Assembly (NCBI RefSeq): GCF_000380505.1
Contig: NZ_AQYH01000017.1
Coordinates: forward strand, 34,120-98,119
Reading direction: 5' to 3'
DNA length: 64,000 nucleotides
DNA from: Kaistia granuli DSM 23481
GTDB taxonomy: Bacteria > Pseudomonadota > Alphaproteobacteria > Rhizobiales > Kaistiaceae
The notes below the pieces were generated by a model. It was not told the DNA's origin, searched no databases, and saw only the letters and a program-made list of their open reading frames with translations. Positions 18,995 to 64,000 of this stretch are shown here, piece by piece. A program made the translations under genes and the position numbers. Each line of letters opens with the position of its first letter. Positions within the stretch are counted from its first letter, which is position 1.

Positions 18995-19076
18995 CGTCAT
19001 CCCCGCGAAAGCGGGGATTCATCAAGGCCAGAGACAACTCAGGCTGCATGGATCCCGGGTAAAGCCCGGGATGACG
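18995..19076. repeat. REP-like palindromic element (copy A)
   Basis: An 82-bp element bounded by CGTCATCCC and GGGATGACG. It contains two hairpins: CCCCGC-GAAA-GCGGGG at the left and CCCGGGTAAAGCCCGGG at the right. Related copies lie at 27569-27600, 46093-46217 and 63593-63685. Its right end holds a full CCCGGGATGACG (19065-19076), the predicted IS110 target. It sits between binding protein and permease genes. Confidence 0.85.
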
Positions 19077-27568: not shown

Positions 27569-27600
27569 CCGTCATCCCGGGCCGGAGCCGGGGATGACGG
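27569..27600. repeat. Short REP-like palindrome (copy B)
   Basis: CCGTCATCCC (27569-27578) and GGGATGACGG (27591-27600) form a perfect 10-bp outer stem. It contains a full predicted IS110 target, CGTCATCCCGGG (27570-27581), in minus orientation. It lies between the system-2 binding-protein and permease genes. Confidence 0.85.
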
Positions 27601-46092: not shown

Positions 46093-46217
46093 CGTCATCC
46101 CGGACGCAGCGAAGCGGAGATCCGGGATCCATTCAGCCGGGTTGCCGGCAGTTTGAAGGATCCTCGTTCTTCCCGCGAACCCGGCTGAATGGATCCCGGG
46201 TCAAGCCCGGGATGACG
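46093..46217. repeat. Nested REP-like palindrome (copy C)
   Basis: A 125-bp element bounded by CGTCATCCC and GGGATGACG. Inside, a perfect 22-bp inverted repeat (46122-46143 with 46178-46199, containing GGATCCATTCAGCCGG) encloses a 34-bp centre. Its right end carries a complete CCCGGGATGACG (46206-46217). It lies between two convergent genes, the phosphatase and the E1-like enzyme, and may end transcription from both sides. Confidence 0.88.
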
Positions 46218-57217: not shown

Positions 57218-59230
57218 GTGATTGGCCGATGTAGCGTTCCGGCGATGTGTATGGGTGTTGTGCCGTTGAAAGTCCCTGTCCTCCAACCGCGCGGCATCCG
57301 CACTCGGCGCCGGTTCCGTCAGACCGTCGCATCGGCGATGGTCATCGTGATGGCGGGCTCGACGGCCACCTATGCACAGGATGGCGGTTTCCTCAGCGGC
57401 TTTCGCTCGCTCTTCGGCAAGGAAAAGGTCGAACCAGTCGCCGACGCGGTTCCCTATAAGCCGACCGTCAACGTTCCAGACGCACCGCGTTCGCTGCGCA
57501 AGGCGATCACCGCCGCCTCCACCCTGCAGTCGATGCGGAAGTCGCCGCCCTCCGGCGCCGCCGGCTTGCTGCGCCGGGCGCGCGCCGACATCGACCAGAT
57601 CACCGCGGCGCTCTATTCCAACGGCTATTATGGCGGGTCCATCCGCATCACGATCGCCGGCCGGGATCTCGACGCGCCGGACATCCTGCAGGCGATCGAG
57701 GCCGCGCGGCCGGCCGGCCCCGTTCCGGTGCAGATCGACGTCACCACCGGGCCCCTGTTCCATTTCGGCAGCATCACGCTGGTCGACGAGCGCAACCGGC
57801 CCCTGCCGATGGCGCCGACCTTGCGCGAACTCGGGATCGAGCCGGGCTCCGACGCCAAGTCGACGACCATCCTCGATGCCGAGGGCAAGATCGCCGATTA
57901 CTTCCGCAAGGAAGGCCACGCCTTTGCCAAGGTGGTCGACAAGGACGTCGTCGCGGACCATGCGTCGAACCTCGTCAACGTCACCTATGTCGTCAGCACG
58001 GGACCGGCGGTCGCCTTCGGCCAGGTCACCGTCGCCGGCACCGAAAAGGTGCGCCCGTCCTTCGTCGAGGAGCGGGTCCGCATCATTCCGGGCGAGATGT
58101 TCTCGCCGCAGCGTCTCGCCGATACGCGCAAGTCGCTGCTGCGCTACGAGATATTCTCCGGCGTCCGCATCCGCGAGGGCGATAAGCTGGACGCCGACGG
58201 CCGCTTGCCGGTCGAGGTCGAGGTGACCGAACGCAAGCCGCGCTATGTCGGCTTCGGCGCCAAGTATTCCTCCACCGACGGCTCGTCGATCAACGCCTTC
58301 TGGGGCCATCGCAACCTGTTCGGCGGCGCCGAGACGCTGCGCCTCGACGGCCAGGTCTCGTGGTTCGGCAGCAAGTCCAGCGCCGTGCCGGATGCCAATC
58401 CGCTCGGCTACCGCTTCGCCGCCACCTTCGGCAAGCCCGGCATCTGGACGCCGATCGACGATCTCGTCGCCCAGGCGGCGGTGCTGCGCGAGGTCACCGA
58501 CGCCTATGTCCGCGAGGCGGCGACCTTCACGGCCGGCGTCCGGCGCAACTATTCCGACCAGTTCTCCGTGCAGGTCGGCCTCGATCTCGAACAGTCACAT
58601 GTCCAGGACGCCACCGGCTCGCGCGACGACACCATCGTCGGCGTCCCGATCGACGTCGCCTACGACACCACCGACAACCCGCTCGATCCGTCCTCCGGCA
58701 TTCGCGCCTCGGGCACTTTCGAGCCCTTCGCCTATCTCGGCCAGGCGAGCGCCGGACCGATGATGTTCAAGGGCTCGCTCTCCACCTACAAGGCACTGGA
58801 CGAGGAGAAGCGCTACATCCTCGCCGGCCGCGTCTCGGCCGGCACCATCTTCGGCGCCGATCTGCTCGACGTGCCGCCGCAGCGGCGCTTCTATGTCGGC
58901 GGCGGCGGTTCGCTGCGCGGCTATGATTATCAGTCGGTCAGCCCGCGCAACGCGCAGGGCGACATCATCGGCGGCCTGAGCTACGTGACCGCCTCGGCTG
59001 AGGCGCGCATCAAGGTGACGGATACGATCGGCATCGTGCCGTTCTTCGATATCGGCGGCGCCTCAGAGGGCTCGGTTCCCGACCTCGATGACCTGCGCTA
59101 TGCCGCCGGCCTCGGTCTGCGCTATTATACCGGCATCGGCCCCGTCCGGCTCGACGTCGCCATCCCGCTCGATCCCGAGCCCGACGATGCCGGCTACGGC
59201 ATCTATATCAGCCTTGGACAGTCGTTCTGA
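57218..59230 (+). CDS. tamA: Outer membrane assembly factor TamA (BamA/Omp85 family)
   Basis: About 670 residues: N-terminal export signal (about 30-53), periplasmic POTRA-like domains (about 90-330) and a C-terminal 16-strand barrel with the Omp85 motif GGGSLRGYDY and a terminal phenylalanine. With TamB it helps move lipids and some proteins into the outer membrane. Start uncertain: a GTG at 57218 lies only 1 bp after AGGAG, and ATGs at 57245 or 57251 are alternatives. The stop overlaps the tamB start (TGATG). Confidence 0.9.
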   Translation: MIGRCSVPAMCMGVVPLKVPVLQPRGIRTRRRFRQTVASAMVIVMAGSTATYAQDGGFLSGFRSLFGKEKVEPVADAVPYKPTVNVPDAPRSLRKAITAASTLQSMRKSPPSGAAGLLRRARADIDQITAALYSNGYYGGSIRITIAGRDLDAPDILQAIEAARPAGPVPVQIDVTTGPLFHFGSITLVDERNRPLPMAPTLRELGIEPGSDAKSTTILDAEGKIADYFRKEGHAFAKVVDKDVVADHASNLVNVTYVVSTGPAVAFGQVTVAGTEKVRPSFVEERVRIIPGEMFSPQRLADTRKSLLRYEIFSGVRIREGDKLDADGRLPVEVEVTERKPRYVGFGAKYSSTDGSSINAFWGHRNLFGGAETLRLDGQVSWFGSKSSAVPDANPLGYRFAATFGKPGIWTPIDDLVAQAAVLREVTDAYVREAATFTAGVRRNYSDQFSVQVGLDLEQSHVQDATGSRDDTIVGVPIDVAYDTTDNPLDPSSGIRASGTFEPFAYLGQASAGPMMFKGSLSTYKALDEEKRYILAGRVSAGTIFGADLLDVPPQRRFYVGGGGSLRGYDYQSVSPRNAQGDIIGGLSYVTASAEARIKVTDTIGIVPFFDIGGASEGSVPDLDDLRYAAGLGLRYYTGIGPVRLDVAIPLDPEPDDAGYGIYISLGQSF

Positions 59231-62200
59231 TGCCTCGCGCCCTCAAGATCCTGCGCTGGTTCGGCGTCGGTTTCATTGCCGTCCTGATCGCGCTCGTTGG
59301 CCTGTTCGGCTTCCTGCAGACGGGCCCCGGCCTGCGCATGCTCGCCAGCGTCGGCAGCAAGCTCGCCAGCAGCGACGGGCTGACGGTGCAGATCGAGGGT
59401 ATTTCCGGCTTCGTTCCCTCCAACCTGTCGATCGCCCGCATCGACGTGGCCGACGCCACCGGCCCGTTCGCTTCGGTCGAGAACCTGCATCTCGCCTGGC
59501 ATCCGCTGTCGCTCCTTTCCGGCAAGGTGGCGATTACCGATCTGTCGGCTGACCGGGTTGCGGTGTCGCGGCAGCCTGTCCTGCCGGCCGCGCCGGCCGA
59601 TAGCAGCTCTTCCGGCGGCATTCCTTTCATCCGCGTCGCGCTCGACCGGCTCGACATTGCCAAGATCGACATCGGCGAGCCGGTGCTCGGCATGGCGGCC
59701 GTGCTCAACCTGCAGGCGTCGGCCCGGCTGGTCGATCCGGCCGAGGGGCTGGCGCTCGACTTCGCGGTGGTCCGCGAGGACGCGCCCGGCGAGATCAAGG
59801 GCCGCGTCCGCTATGCGCCGGGCAATGGTGCCGGCAGCGACTCGCTCTATCTCGATGTCACCGCCAGCGAACCGGCCGGCGGCCTGGTCGCCCGTCTCGC
59901 GCAGATCGAGGGGCTTCCGGCGCTCGCGCTTTCGATCAAGGGCAATGCGCCGCTCAACAATTGGGACGGCCGTATCGCGCTCGATGCCGGTAGCGCCGGC
60001 CAGCTTTCCGGCACCGCCGCCGTCAAGGAGGTCGAGACCGGCCGCCGTGTCATGCTCGATCTCGGCGGCGACATTGCCGGCCTGGTTCCCGCCTCGATCC
60101 GCCCGCTCTTCACCGACCGGACGACGCTGATCGGCTCGGCCATCGTCGAGCCCGAGGGCCGCGTCGCCATCGAAGGGCTGAACGCCACCGCGTCCGGCTT
60201 CGGCCTGGCGCTGGTAGGCAGCCTCGACACCAAGGCCAAGACCGCCGATGTCAGGCTCGACCTGGTCGGCGGCGACCCCTCGCATTTCGCCGCCTTCGCG
60301 CCTGGCGTCACCTGGGCCAACTGGCGTCTCAACGCCGCCGCCAACGGCGCTTTCGCGGCGCCGACCGTCGACGCGACGCTGACGGCAAAGGCGCTCGCCG
60401 CCTTCGGCTATGACGCGGCCGACCTCAGCATCGTCGCCAAGACGACGCCGGCCGGCAACGGCGGGCTCGATTTCACCGTCGACGGCACGGCATCCGGCCT
60501 GTCCGCCGCCGATCCCAAGGTTGCCGCCGCGCTCGGTCCGTCCGCGCGGCTGCAGGCGGCGGGTTCAGTCGGCGATGCCGGCGCCGTCCTGACCTCGGCC
60601 AAGGTGGCGCTGGAGCCGCTCGACCTCACCTTTGCCGGCACCGCCGCAGCCAAGGACGTGAAGGGCGAGCTGCGTCTCGAGCGGCTCAACCTCGCCGCGT
60701 TCTCCGGTTTTGCCGGCCGCCCGCTGACCGGCAGCGCCGTGCTCGCCGCCCGGATCGACGCCGATCCGTCGGTCCGCCGCATCGCGGTCGCTCTCGATGG
60801 CTCATCGCGGGACATCACCACCGGCATCGCTCAGGTCGACGATTTCTTCAGCGGCGAGAGCCGGATCCAGGGCTCGGTCTCGCTGGCCGAGGACGGTCGC
60901 ATCGCCGTCAACGGCCTGACGCTGGCCGCCAAGGGGCTCGACGTCGCGGTCGATGGCGGCATCGAGAAATCCGCCGCCGATCTCGCCGCCCGCATCAAGC
61001 TCGCCGATCTGAAGCAGCTCGATCCGCGCGTTTCCGGCGCCGCCAATGCCGATCTGCGTTTCACCGGCGGCCTCGAGGCGCTCGGCCTCACCGGCAAGGT
61101 GTCGATCCCAGCCGGCGTCGCCATGGACCAGAAGATCGAGAACCTGGCGCTCACCGTTGACCTGACCGACTTGACCGGCCTGCCGGGAGGCACGGTCGCG
61201 CTCGACGGCAAGCTCGCCGGCAAGCCGGCCAAGGGCGGGGCAAAGCTGACCACGCTCGCCGATGGCGGTCGCCGTCTCGACAATCTCGATCTCGCCATTG
61301 GCGGGGTCAATGCCAAGGGTGCGGCGAGCCTTGCCGCCTCCGGCCTCGTCGACGGCAAGGTCACCATCGCCGCCTCCAACCTCGCCGATCTCTCGGGCCT
61401 GGTCCTGACCGAGCTCGCCGGCCGGCTCGACGCCACCATTGTGCTCGACGCGCCGAACGGCGCGCAGCGCGTCGCCGTCGACGGCTCGGCCGCCGGGCTG
61501 CGCGTTGCCGGCAACCGCGTCGACAAGGCCGACATCAACGCCCGCATCGCCGATCTGACCGGCACGCCGGTGATCGACGGCAAGGTGGTGCTCTCCGGCG
61601 TCGTCGCCGGCGGCCAGACCATCGAGAAGGCGACCGTGACGGCGAAGAGTGCCGGTACCGCCACAGACGTCACGCTGGACACCGCCTTGCTCGGCGCCAG
61701 CATCAACGCCAAGGCGCGGATTTCGCCGGCCGGCGAGGCGACCGATGTCCGCCTCGACACGCTGAAGCTTTCCCGCGCCGGCACCAATGTGACGCTCGCT
61801 TCGCCCGCGAACATTGTGATCGCCAAGGGAGGCGTCACCATCGACAAGCTGGCGCTGGTGACCGGCGACGGCCGGACCACGATCAGCGGCCGCGCCGGCG
61901 AGACGCTCGACCTCGATGTCGACCTGCGCAATCTGCCCTTGTCGCTGGCCTCGCTCGCCTCGCCGACGCTCGACATGAAGGGCACGCTGAGCGGAACCGC
62001 GCGCGTCACCGGCTCGGCCTCGGCACCAGCCGGCGACTACGACCTCCGGATCGCCAAGCTCACCAATGGCGATATCGCCAAGGCCGGCCTCGGACCGTTC
62101 GACATCACCGCCAAGGGCAAGCTCGGCGGCGGGCGCGTCGGCGTCGAGGCGACGATCAAGGCGCCCTCGGTGTCCGGCCTGACGATCAATGGCTCGGTGC

Positions 62201-63543
62201 CGATCGCCGGCGGCGACATGGACCTGAAGATCAAGGGCGGCATCGATCTCGCCATCGCCAACACCGCGCTCGCCACGTCCGGCGGCAATGTCCGCGGCAA
62301 GGCCGTGATCGACGCGGCTCTGGGCGGGCCGACCTCGGCTCCGCGCGCCTCGGGCACGGTGCGGATCTCGGGCGCCAGCTACAATGATTCGCTGAATGGC
62401 ATCGCACTCTCCAACATCGAGGCGGTGCTGACCGGCACCGACCGCACCATCCAGGTCACGTCGTTCTCGGCGCAGACCGTCCAGGGCGGCCGCATCGTCG
62501 GCAAGGGCAATGTCGGTCTCGACCCGGCCCAGGGCTTCCCGGCCGCCATCGAAGTCACGCTGCAGAAGGCGACGCTGGTCAACAGCGACATGATGCGGCT
62601 CGTCGCCGACGGCAAGATCAACGTCCAGGGACCGGTCGCGACGCGGCCGAAGATCGTCGGCCAGATCAACGTCCGCAGCCTCGACATCAACATCGCCGAC
62701 GTGCCGTCGGGCGGGCTCGACCCGCTCGCCGTCCGCCACGTCAATACCGGCAAGCAGCCGGCGGGGAAGGCCGGCATGCGGGCCCAGGCGCAGGCCCGCG
62801 CCGCCGCGACCGCCAAGAAGAAGACTCAGCCGGCGAGCCCCTTCGTGGCCGATCTCGACCTCCGCGTCTCGGCCCCGAACGGCGTGTTTGTGCGTGGCAT
62901 GGGCATGGATGCCGAGTTTGGCGGCGACCTGACGCTGCGCGGCACCACCGCCGACATGGTGACGCTGGGCGGCTTCGAGTTGAGGCGCGGCCGGTTCAAC
63001 GTCGTTGGCCGCCAGCTCGATTTCACCCAGGGCAAGATCACCTTCAATGGCAGCCTCGACCCGGAGCTCGACTTCAAGGCTGATACCACCGGCGGCGACG
63101 TCGTCGCCAGCATCATCATCACCGGCAATGCGTCGTCGCCGGAGGTGAGCTTCGCCTCGACGCCGACCTTGCCGCAGGACGAGGTGATCGCCCGGCTGCT
63201 GTTCGGGCGCGCGATCAGCACGCTGACGCCCGGCCAGGCGCTGCAGGTGGCACAGACGGTGGCGCAGTTCTCGGGCCGCGGGACAGGCGTGCTCGATTCG
63301 GTTCGGCGTTCGCTCGGCGTCGATTCGCTGTCGATCGGCACCGACGCTTCCGGCAAGGGCGGCCAGCTCGGCATCGGCAAGCGGCTGAACGACAAGGTCT
63401 ATATCGGCGTGCAGCAGGGTACGTCGCCGGATTCGAGCAAGGTCACGGTCGATGTCGACCTGACGCGCAATATCCGCATCCAGGGCGCGGCCGGCGCCGA
63501 TGGCTCCAACGAGGTCGGCATCGGCGCGCAGTGGGATTATTGA
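59230..63543 (+). CDS. tamB: Translocation and assembly module protein TamB (AsmA-like, DUF490)
   Basis: A 1437-residue protein. A single N-terminal membrane anchor (about 9-30) is followed by a very long, repetitive beta-helical region rich in Ala, Gly, Val and Asp that forms the periplasm-spanning groove, and the conserved DUF490 C-terminus (about 1120-1437; LGGFELRRGRFNVVGRQLDF; ending in QWDY). A low-complexity lysine/alanine insert (about 1180-1200) breaks the groove near the C-terminal domain. It is translationally coupled to tamA. It acts in lipid and autotransporter transport to the outer membrane. Confidence 0.92.
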   Translation: MPRALKILRWFGVGFIAVLIALVGLFGFLQTGPGLRMLASVGSKLASSDGLTVQIEGISGFVPSNLSIARIDVADATGPFASVENLHLAWHPLSLLSGKVAITDLSADRVAVSRQPVLPAAPADSSSSGGIPFIRVALDRLDIAKIDIGEPVLGMAAVLNLQASARLVDPAEGLALDFAVVREDAPGEIKGRVRYAPGNGAGSDSLYLDVTASEPAGGLVARLAQIEGLPALALSIKGNAPLNNWDGRIALDAGSAGQLSGTAAVKEVETGRRVMLDLGGDIAGLVPASIRPLFTDRTTLIGSAIVEPEGRVAIEGLNATASGFGLALVGSLDTKAKTADVRLDLVGGDPSHFAAFAPGVTWANWRLNAAANGAFAAPTVDATLTAKALAAFGYDAADLSIVAKTTPAGNGGLDFTVDGTASGLSAADPKVAAALGPSARLQAAGSVGDAGAVLTSAKVALEPLDLTFAGTAAAKDVKGELRLERLNLAAFSGFAGRPLTGSAVLAARIDADPSVRRIAVALDGSSRDITTGIAQVDDFFSGESRIQGSVSLAEDGRIAVNGLTLAAKGLDVAVDGGIEKSAADLAARIKLADLKQLDPRVSGAANADLRFTGGLEALGLTGKVSIPAGVAMDQKIENLALTVDLTDLTGLPGGTVALDGKLAGKPAKGGAKLTTLADGGRRLDNLDLAIGGVNAKGAASLAASGLVDGKVTIAASNLADLSGLVLTELAGRLDATIVLDAPNGAQRVAVDGSAAGLRVAGNRVDKADINARIADLTGTPVIDGKVVLSGVVAGGQTIEKATVTAKSAGTATDVTLDTALLGASINAKARISPAGEATDVRLDTLKLSRAGTNVTLASPANIVIAKGGVTIDKLALVTGDGRTTISGRAGETLDLDVDLRNLPLSLASLASPTLDMKGTLSGTARVTGSASAPAGDYDLRIAKLTNGDIAKAGLGPFDITAKGKLGGGRVGVEATIKAPSVSGLTINGSVPIAGGDMDLKIKGGIDLAIANTALATSGGNVRGKAVIDAALGGPTSAPRASGTVRISGASYNDSLNGIALSNIEAVLTGTDRTIQVTSFSAQTVQGGRIVGKGNVGLDPAQGFPAAIEVTLQKATLVNSDMMRLVADGKINVQGPVATRPKIVGQINVRSLDINIADVPSGGLDPLAVRHVNTGKQPAGKAGMRAQAQARAAATAKKKTQPASPFVADLDLRVSAPNGVFVRGMGMDAEFGGDLTLRGTTADMVTLGGFELRRGRFNVVGRQLDFTQGKITFNGSLDPELDFKADTTGGDVVASIIITGNASSPEVSFASTPTLPQDEVIARLLFGRAISTLTPGQALQVAQTVAQFSGRGTGVLDSVRRSLGVDSLSIGTDASGKGGQLGIGKRLNDKVYIGVQQGTSPDSSKVTVDVDLTRNIRIQGAAGADGSNEVGIGAQWDY

Positions 63544-63592: not shown

Positions 63593-63685
63593 CCCGGGCT
63601 CGATCCGGGATCCATGCAGCGGAGGTATCGGGAAGCTCGCGCTGCCAAGGCTCCAACTGAATGGGTCCCGGGTTAAGCCCGGGAT
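63593..63685. repeat. REP-like element (copy D), interrupted on its right side
   Basis: It begins CCCGGGCTCGATCCGGGATCC and ends GTCCCGGGTTAAGCCCGGGAT, like copy C. Where copies A and C continue GACGCC, this copy changes at 63686 to TGTCTGTTTGG. The missing GACG half should lie beyond the inserted element, outside the window. Confidence 0.85.
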
Positions 63686-63719
63686 TGTCTGTTTGGAATT
63701 TGCTAGATGGTTTGGGCCG

Positions 63720-63890
63720 GTTGCGGGTTTCGAAACGGCCATCCCGAAACCCGCGTCCATGGCCGAGACCGTCCCGGGATCGGGCGCCTGCCCGTCGTCA
63801 TCTGGGTCCGGCGGTGGACCGGCTTCGCTTGCTTGTTGACTTGATGGGGCCGCGTTCCCGCGAGCCCGCAGACAATCCGAAGCCAGGACA
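63720..63890 (+). ncRNA. Candidate bridge RNA of the IS110-family element
   Basis: A 5' hairpin is formed by GCGGGTTTCG (63723-63732) with CGAAACCCGC (63745-63754). Target loop: outer stem GCCG-a-GACC (63762-63770) with GGTCCGGC (63805-63812); left guide CCCGGGAT (63773-63780), equal to the target at 63678-63685; inner hairpin CGGGC-GCCT-GCCCG (63781-63794); right guide CGTCATC (63796-63802), complement of GATGACG. Donor loop: outer stem GGCTTCG (63821-63827) with CGAAGCC (63878-63884); left guide ending TTGAT (63841-63845); inner hairpin 63847-63867; right guide CAGACAAT (63869-63876), complement of ATTGTCTG at 63684-63691. Ends are approximate; folded by eye. Confidence 0.85.
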
Positions 63891-63894
63891 AACC

Positions 63895-64000
63895 ATGCCA
63901 TCACCCAGCCCAGCCGTCGAGACGGTGCCGCGCATCCTCGGCATCGACGTCGCCAAGGAAACGGTCGTCCTGCACGACAGCACCTCCGGCCAAACCCTTG
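63895..64000 (+). CDS. IS110-family transposase (bridge-RNA recombinase), N-terminal fragment
   Basis: Only 35 codons are in the window. RILGIDVAKETVVLHD is the first RuvC-like strand of DEDD transposases, with the catalytic aspartate in GIDVAK. The rest of the RuvC-like domain and the C-terminal serine-containing Tnp domain lie outside. The ATG at 63895 follows the predicted bridge RNA directly; CAGGACAAACC gives AGGA as ribosome site. Confidence 0.88.
   Translation, partial: MPSPSPAVETVPRILGIDVAKETVVLHDSTSGQTL

Follow-up and report, generated by a model that had tools for sequence, protein, structure and literature searches.

The stretch analysed here, which we call the window, comprises 64,000 nucleotides of Kaistia granuli DSM 23481 and shares one end with contig C17 (of 20), an end that falls inside an IS110-family element. 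On the forward strand, to which all coordinates refer unless stated otherwise, the element is preceded by a 1,437-aa ORF (59230-63543), whose C-terminal part we take to resemble a TamB-type translocation protein. Between the two lies the left part of an interrupted REP palindrome, GGTCCCGGGTTAAGCCCGGGAT (63664-63685), which combines the left target with the core and of which the stretch 63667-63685 reads CCCGGGTTAAGCCCGGG-AT. The left part of the element itself (63684-64000), cut by the end of window and contig, accounts for the last 317 bases: a core dinucleotide AT (63684-63685) that is common to the target, the donor and all four guides described below, a 209-bp leader, and the start of the recombinase gene (63895-64000, MPSPSPAVETVPRILGIDVAKETVV..., with its ATG at 63895). 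The first eight bases of the element, ATTGTCTG (63684-63691), form the right donor. Intact copies of the target, CCCGGGATGACG, lie elsewhere in the window at 19065-19076 and 46206-46217 and, on the reverse strand, at 27570-27581; the genome holds 34 of them, against one occurrence of the reversed control.

The original prediction had read the leader as a bridge RNA, and all the strings it named were found in place: the left target guide CCCGGGAT (63773-63780), the right target guide CGTCATC (63796-63802), which is the complement of GATGACG, the hairpin CGGGC-GCCT-GCCCG that separates the two (63781-63794; also present in the single fold and the alignment fold), the right donor guide CAGACAAT (63869-63876), which is the complement of ATTGTCTG, and the halves GGCTTCG (63821-63827) and CGAAGCC (63878-63884) of a possible stem closing the donor loop. 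The fourth guide, named there only through the match it was expected to make, is the left donor guide TTGACTTGAT at 63836-63845, its counterpart being the right end of the element, CTGACTTGAT. When the leader was shuffled 20,000 times with its dinucleotides kept, the four guide strings (8, 7, 9 and 8 nt) appeared in 390, 193, 9 and 17 shuffles, respectively, with two or more of them together in six shuffles and three or more in none.

A search of the genome for further copies, as had been suggested, found the leader at six other contig termini and the right end at seven, which makes seven left and seven right ends, all 14 of them at contig ends. With the slash marking the junction, the left junctions read CCGGG/AT-TGTCTG, that is CCGGG/ATTGTCTG, in all seven cases (six with CCCGGG, one with TCCGGG), and the right junctions read CTGACTTG-AT/GAC (AACTGACTTGAT/GAC) in all seven, the next base being G in six and A in one. 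The expectation that the right end would match the left donor guide and then continue with AT was thus borne out (AACTGACTTG-AT in 7/7 right ends), and the predicted AT core was confirmed at the element ends. The flank beyond it was foreseen in part: it resumes with GACG in six of the seven copies and GACA in one, but the window copy is followed by GACGACGAGCG and not by the guessed GACGCC. The recombinase frame ends ACT-TGA-T, which places the stop codon TGA inside the right-end donor TTGAT.

Flanking sequences of the 14 ends were compared with 13 same-genus loci that carry the gene upstream of the element in the window. The left flank of the window copy matches all 13, and in six of them (L181-L185 and L189) it is directly adjoined by sequence matching the start of contig C4, so the window copy continues on C4, with flank GACGACGAGCG. 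We found no ATTGTCTG in these six stretches, and a search of other same-genus genomes for the leader returned a single 33-base match. At the empty site, an intact GGCCGGGATGACG is present in L181, L185 and L189 (the CCGGGATGACG REP is kept in 3/6), and L189 continues with CAGAGCGCGTGGC, close to the flank on C4; L182 carries the variant TCGGGATGACGG, and the stretches of L183 and L184 lack CCGGGATGACG. Over the seven bases that precede the core, the three intact sites differ from the GCCCGGG of the window at one position, so these are related empty sites and not identical ones. The shared junction form of all seven left ends, together with the intact REP in three relatives, agrees with the predicted insertion into a REP palindrome. 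While the location of all fourteen ends at contig ends could suggest that the junctions are assembly artefacts created at repeats, this is vanishingly unlikely: relatives hold complete copies of the same architecture inside contigs, and both flanks of the window copy adjoin in six relatives.

Given that the longest assembled ends measure 335 and 344 bp and that the elements of relatives span 1,152-1,247 bp, roughly 470-570 bp of the middle are missing from the assembly, and the E, D and D residues of the element's own recombinase are consequently not seen; its assembled portions hold the first-D region and the SG motif only. DNA searches for a complete copy in 14 same-genus and 28 same-family genomes returned only the seven own ends and matches of 31-43 bases, and among plasmids a DNA search turned up two partial matches from Agrobacterium, covering 29% of the query, and a protein search only relatives under 60% identity. 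The N-terminal part (35 aa in the window, with the first-D region GIDVAK) has no Pfam hit; the recombinases of the relatives L070 and L083 exceed the Pfam cut-off. The C-terminal 113 aa, encoded on C4, match PF02371 with 62 bits (cut-off 21.3) and carry the HPRDSG motif characteristic of the IS110 C-terminus; the same fragment scores 80 bits with NF033542 ("IS110 family RNA-guided transposase"), whose cut-off of 140 bits is set for the whole protein and is exceeded by the relatives L070 and L083. Across 15 full recombinases of relatives, D17, E64, D106, D109 and G248 show no variation, while S247 is present in 14 (T in L089); judging by position and from general knowledge of the family, we take D17, E64, D106 and D109 to be the catalytic residues. 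A profile of these 15 proteins matches the solved recombinases of IS621 (8wt6, 5e-47) and ISCro4 (9t56, 1e-48).

At least 66 loci match the C-terminal fragment, among them 29 with TTGATGAC at the right end; going by the titles of the matches listed, 27 of these 29 are alphaproteobacteria and two are Thioalkalivibrio. The remaining loci comprise other IS110 branches, fragments and the irregular L076, with guides analysed in part. Order- and class-level searches added further copies; a class-level search at E 1e-80 yielded six matches in five of 385 genomes, two of which (L163 and L167) lie on contigs equal in length to those of L089 and L072. Regarding classification, the long left non-coding end (209 bp from core to start codon) and the short right end are those of the IS110 group. 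Since the core is AT and not the CT of IS621 orthologues, the element is placed in the IS110 family but not among the IS621 orthologues. Membership of the IS1111 family was considered and rejected on the position of the guides, as the guide region lies upstream of the gene and the right end follows the stop codon too closely to leave space for one. By sequence comparison, an assignment to the known bridge-RNA (IS110) kind, with AT instead of CT as core, appears well supported.

The structural case for a bridge RNA comes from compensatory changes across relatives and from a held-out model, and not from the fold of the single leader, whose stability is unremarkable (z -1.27, matched by 21 of 200 shuffles) and in which a 5' stem-loop GCGGGUUUCG/CGAAACCCGC is predicted at 63723-63754. 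The covariance model R1, for which 16 relatives were used and the window's element was left out, locates the target- and donor-binding loops at 63765-63884 (E 6.6e-17), in the predicted order of target loop, then donor loop; at E up to 1 it has no second match in the window. Applied to 12 other loci, it finds eight, all of them clade members, and gives no match in L106, L104, L090 and L101, which belong to other IS110 branches. In an alignment of 17 leaders, compensatory changes occur in six of seven outer target-stem pairs and in one of two hairpin pairs; the covariation score of the whole fold, 0.209, was reached by 0/500 shuffles and exceeded every slid version, with the qualifications that the structure was taken from the same alignment and that the shuffles do not keep kinship. 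The pairs of the donor arm hardly vary and say little, and the proposed GGCTTCG/CGAAGCC closure of the donor loop stands as far as the strings go, but the alignment fold closes the donor arm somewhat differently. Rfam contains no bridge RNA match to the leader, the lone hit at E up to 1 being a hammerhead below its gathering score. Taken together, the leader reads as a target loop and a donor loop, each with a left and a right guide and each including the core. A different role is suggested by ISPpu9, a REP-inserting IS110-family element described as having two regulatory small RNAs (PMC8450116), and by the position of the donor arm directly before the start codon in the window's element. That the leader RNA chiefly regulates expression of the recombinase, without guiding it to a target, is highly improbable, given that such a role predicts neither four guides nor the covariation of guides with sites; regulatory and guide roles could nevertheless coexist.

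To measure this covariation, the last six bases of each site before the core were compared with the element's own guide zone and with those of all others. For 27 distinct guide zones, a left target guide agrees with its own site at 5.55 of six bases on average, as opposed to 3.96 for the guides of others (0/200,000 permutations), and with one element per distinct site (n=15) the values are 5.63 and 3.94 (0/200,000). L168 was left out (flank of 4 nt), and L177 has no readable left end. Sites range from CCCGGG in the window to CTCGCA (Inquilinus, Asaia and others), CTCGCG (Methylobacterium), CTTAGG and CCAAGG (Mesorhizobium), GCGTAGG (G401) and GCGGAGG (G321), and GCGTAGGAT is an example of a relative's guide. 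The permutations ignore the kinship of elements, an objection answered by two close pairs: in L136/L138, which are 92.7% identical at the DNA level, guide and site changed together from GCGGAGG to GCGTAGG, and in L065/L069 (91.5%) from CCGGG to CGGGG. A tree of the 113 C-terminal residues, computed without L164 and with seven of 18 inner branches well supported, needs 10 changes among nine site classes, the minimum being eight. The scans for elements required ATTGT or a match to the right donor guide, GTCATC, a left-donor-guide pattern and an ATGAC-like right flank, so part of the constancy of the core, of GTCATC and of the junction TTGATTGT follows from these requirements; none was placed on the left target guide or on the fourth right base. 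At this fourth position, right target and right guide are in agreement in 19 of 25 elements (G/A table, Fisher p 0.0015, with the A and C of the L175/L176 pair entered as A), or in 18 of 24 (p 0.0019) when L076, which agrees only via an irregular junction, is removed. On the donor side, left donor guides follow the changes of the right ends, matching seven of eight bases in 28 of 33 copies (own element counted once) and six of eight in the other five (L139, L173-L176).

The original prediction regarded different guides at the same REP site as evidence against it. Overall, own guides fit best, and guides covary with target and donor across orthologues, but the agreement has its misfits: four of six matches in L134, and in L175/L176 (4.0, where other guides reach 4.33), five of six in L065/L066, L096/L097, L139, L164, L165, L173/L174 and L178, a mean of 5.4 in the G321 copies and 5.5 in L135/L179. 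An alternative in which the recombinase protein itself recognises REP palindromes, and the resemblance between leader and site is a coincidence or a captured REP fragment, can point to the REP-like foot ATGAC carried by most sites examined (partly a result of how elements were sought) and to IS1397 and ISKpn1 of the IS3 family, for which the transposase was held responsible for the choice of REPs (PMC1525189). We consider it very unlikely, because left guide and site differ in step even between elements that are 91-93% identical, with 0/200,000 permutations doing as well, and because capture of a REP cannot explain two guides that match the element's own ends.

With element ends, AT core, interrupted REP, four guides and the joint change of guide and site all read from the sequences themselves, we are highly confident that the last part of the window is the left end of an insertion sequence of the IS110 family, whose leader likely yields a bridge RNA by which the recombinase would be directed to REP palindromes. 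In the mechanism we propose, the element would excise as a circle, and once its right end is joined to its left, a promoter for transcription of the leader would arise (TTGATT, followed by TA after 16-18 bases). The RNA would then pair with CCCGGG-AT-GACG of the REP and with the circle junction CTGACTTG-AT-TGTCTG, and strand exchange by the recombinase at AT would leave each end with a single AT. In 29 elements joined end to end, the circle junction reads TTGATTGT, partly owing to how the boundaries were constructed; this is a -35-like hexamer that needs both ends, followed by TA 16-18 bases on in most of the 29, and for the window's element the predicted promoter consists of TTGATT, 17 bases and TAGATG. 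A junction promoter of this kind is suggested by likeness to IS621, whose published description includes a promoter rebuilt at the circle junction (PMC11208160).

Bridge RNAs (PMC11208160, PMC11208158), seekRNAs and natural redirection of guides (PMC11187229) and REPs as targets of IS110 elements (PMC1525189) are all known from the literature. For IS621 from E. coli, the reference among bridge-RNA IS110 elements (PMC11208160), the likeness extends to a leader upstream of the recombinase, a target loop followed by a donor loop, guides that cover the core, and a REP target. The two differ in the core (CT in IS621, AT in the window's element), in the right target guide, which can pair 7 nt (GATGACG) here and four in IS621, and in the right non-coding end, which is almost absent here. 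ISRm19 of Sinorhizobium meliloti, also an alphaproteobacterial IS110 element, had all four of its copies in REPs (PMC1525189), a likeness by description only; that paper (2006) predates guide RNAs. Natural redirection by guide change was published for ISEc11/ISXne4 (IS1111) and ISEc21/ISMch6 (IS110), single pairs with transposases 72% identical (PMC11187229), whereas the present clade offers many guide variants in one REP-bound set, some in elements with about 92% identical DNA. Our search of the open PMC literature found no description of the clade, of its AT core or of the way its guides change from host to host, and the earlier statement that no description of this element was known still stands after it.

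We lean towards the interpretation that these elements form a REP-tracking alphaproteobacterial bridge-RNA lineage, in which the right target guide would be fixed on the ATGAC foot common to many REPs, while point changes would adapt the left target guide to the REP that a given host carries. Tens to hundreds of intergenic sites would thereby be open to insertion, probably without harm. G401 has 14 copies of GCGTAGGATGAC, which is absent from six other genomes; for CTCGCAATGACG the count is 524 in the Inquilinus genome and no more than one in any of six others. Against such fitting to the host, an Asaia MAG whose element carries an Inquilinus-type guide has only one CTCGCAATGACG. When the genus to which G321 and G401 belong was scanned with a degenerate pattern, the matches listed included several REP variants within single genomes. 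If this interpretation is true, the lineage would represent a natural series of reprogrammed AT-core bridge RNAs. The clade provides a readable guide-to-site code for AT-core IS110 elements, with many naturally different guides and known sites, and makes it testable how the guide of a mobile element follows the repeats of its hosts. Additionally, as it combines an AT core with a guide able by nature to pair 7 nt, it could supply AT-core recombinases.

Several further observations were made along the way. In L092, L096 and L097 (Mesorhizobium), the left target guide ends in GGAC where GGAT is expected, so that the second core base differs from the site, and the left junctions of L084 and L175 show GT in place of the core AT, which may reflect either mutated cores or tolerated core mismatches. 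The right end of L076 (Methylobacterium) reads TTGAT-TGTGACG instead of TTGAT-GACG, presumably a slip or a damaged site. Among the matches listed, those closest to the C-terminal fragment are L063 (68%) and L064 (67%) from the gammaproteobacterium Thioalkalivibrio sp. ALJ16, both of which share the right end of the window's element and are flanked by TGACG, a pattern suggestive of transfer between classes. In L091, L100, L104, L106, L107, L111 and L113-L116, ACACAGTTGCC or a similar sequence, and not TTGATGAC, follows directly after the stop codon; we regard them as a neighbouring IS110 branch with a different donor end. A more distant IS110-family recombinase is found within the same genus (L141 in G010), 37% identical to the L065 protein. 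Lastly, a second repeated element breaks the assembly at the end of contig C5, at both ends of C16 and at the start of C17; the shared sequence holds TGTCGAAGCTATGAAGGTTGTTCATCCGGGCC and looks like another insertion sequence.
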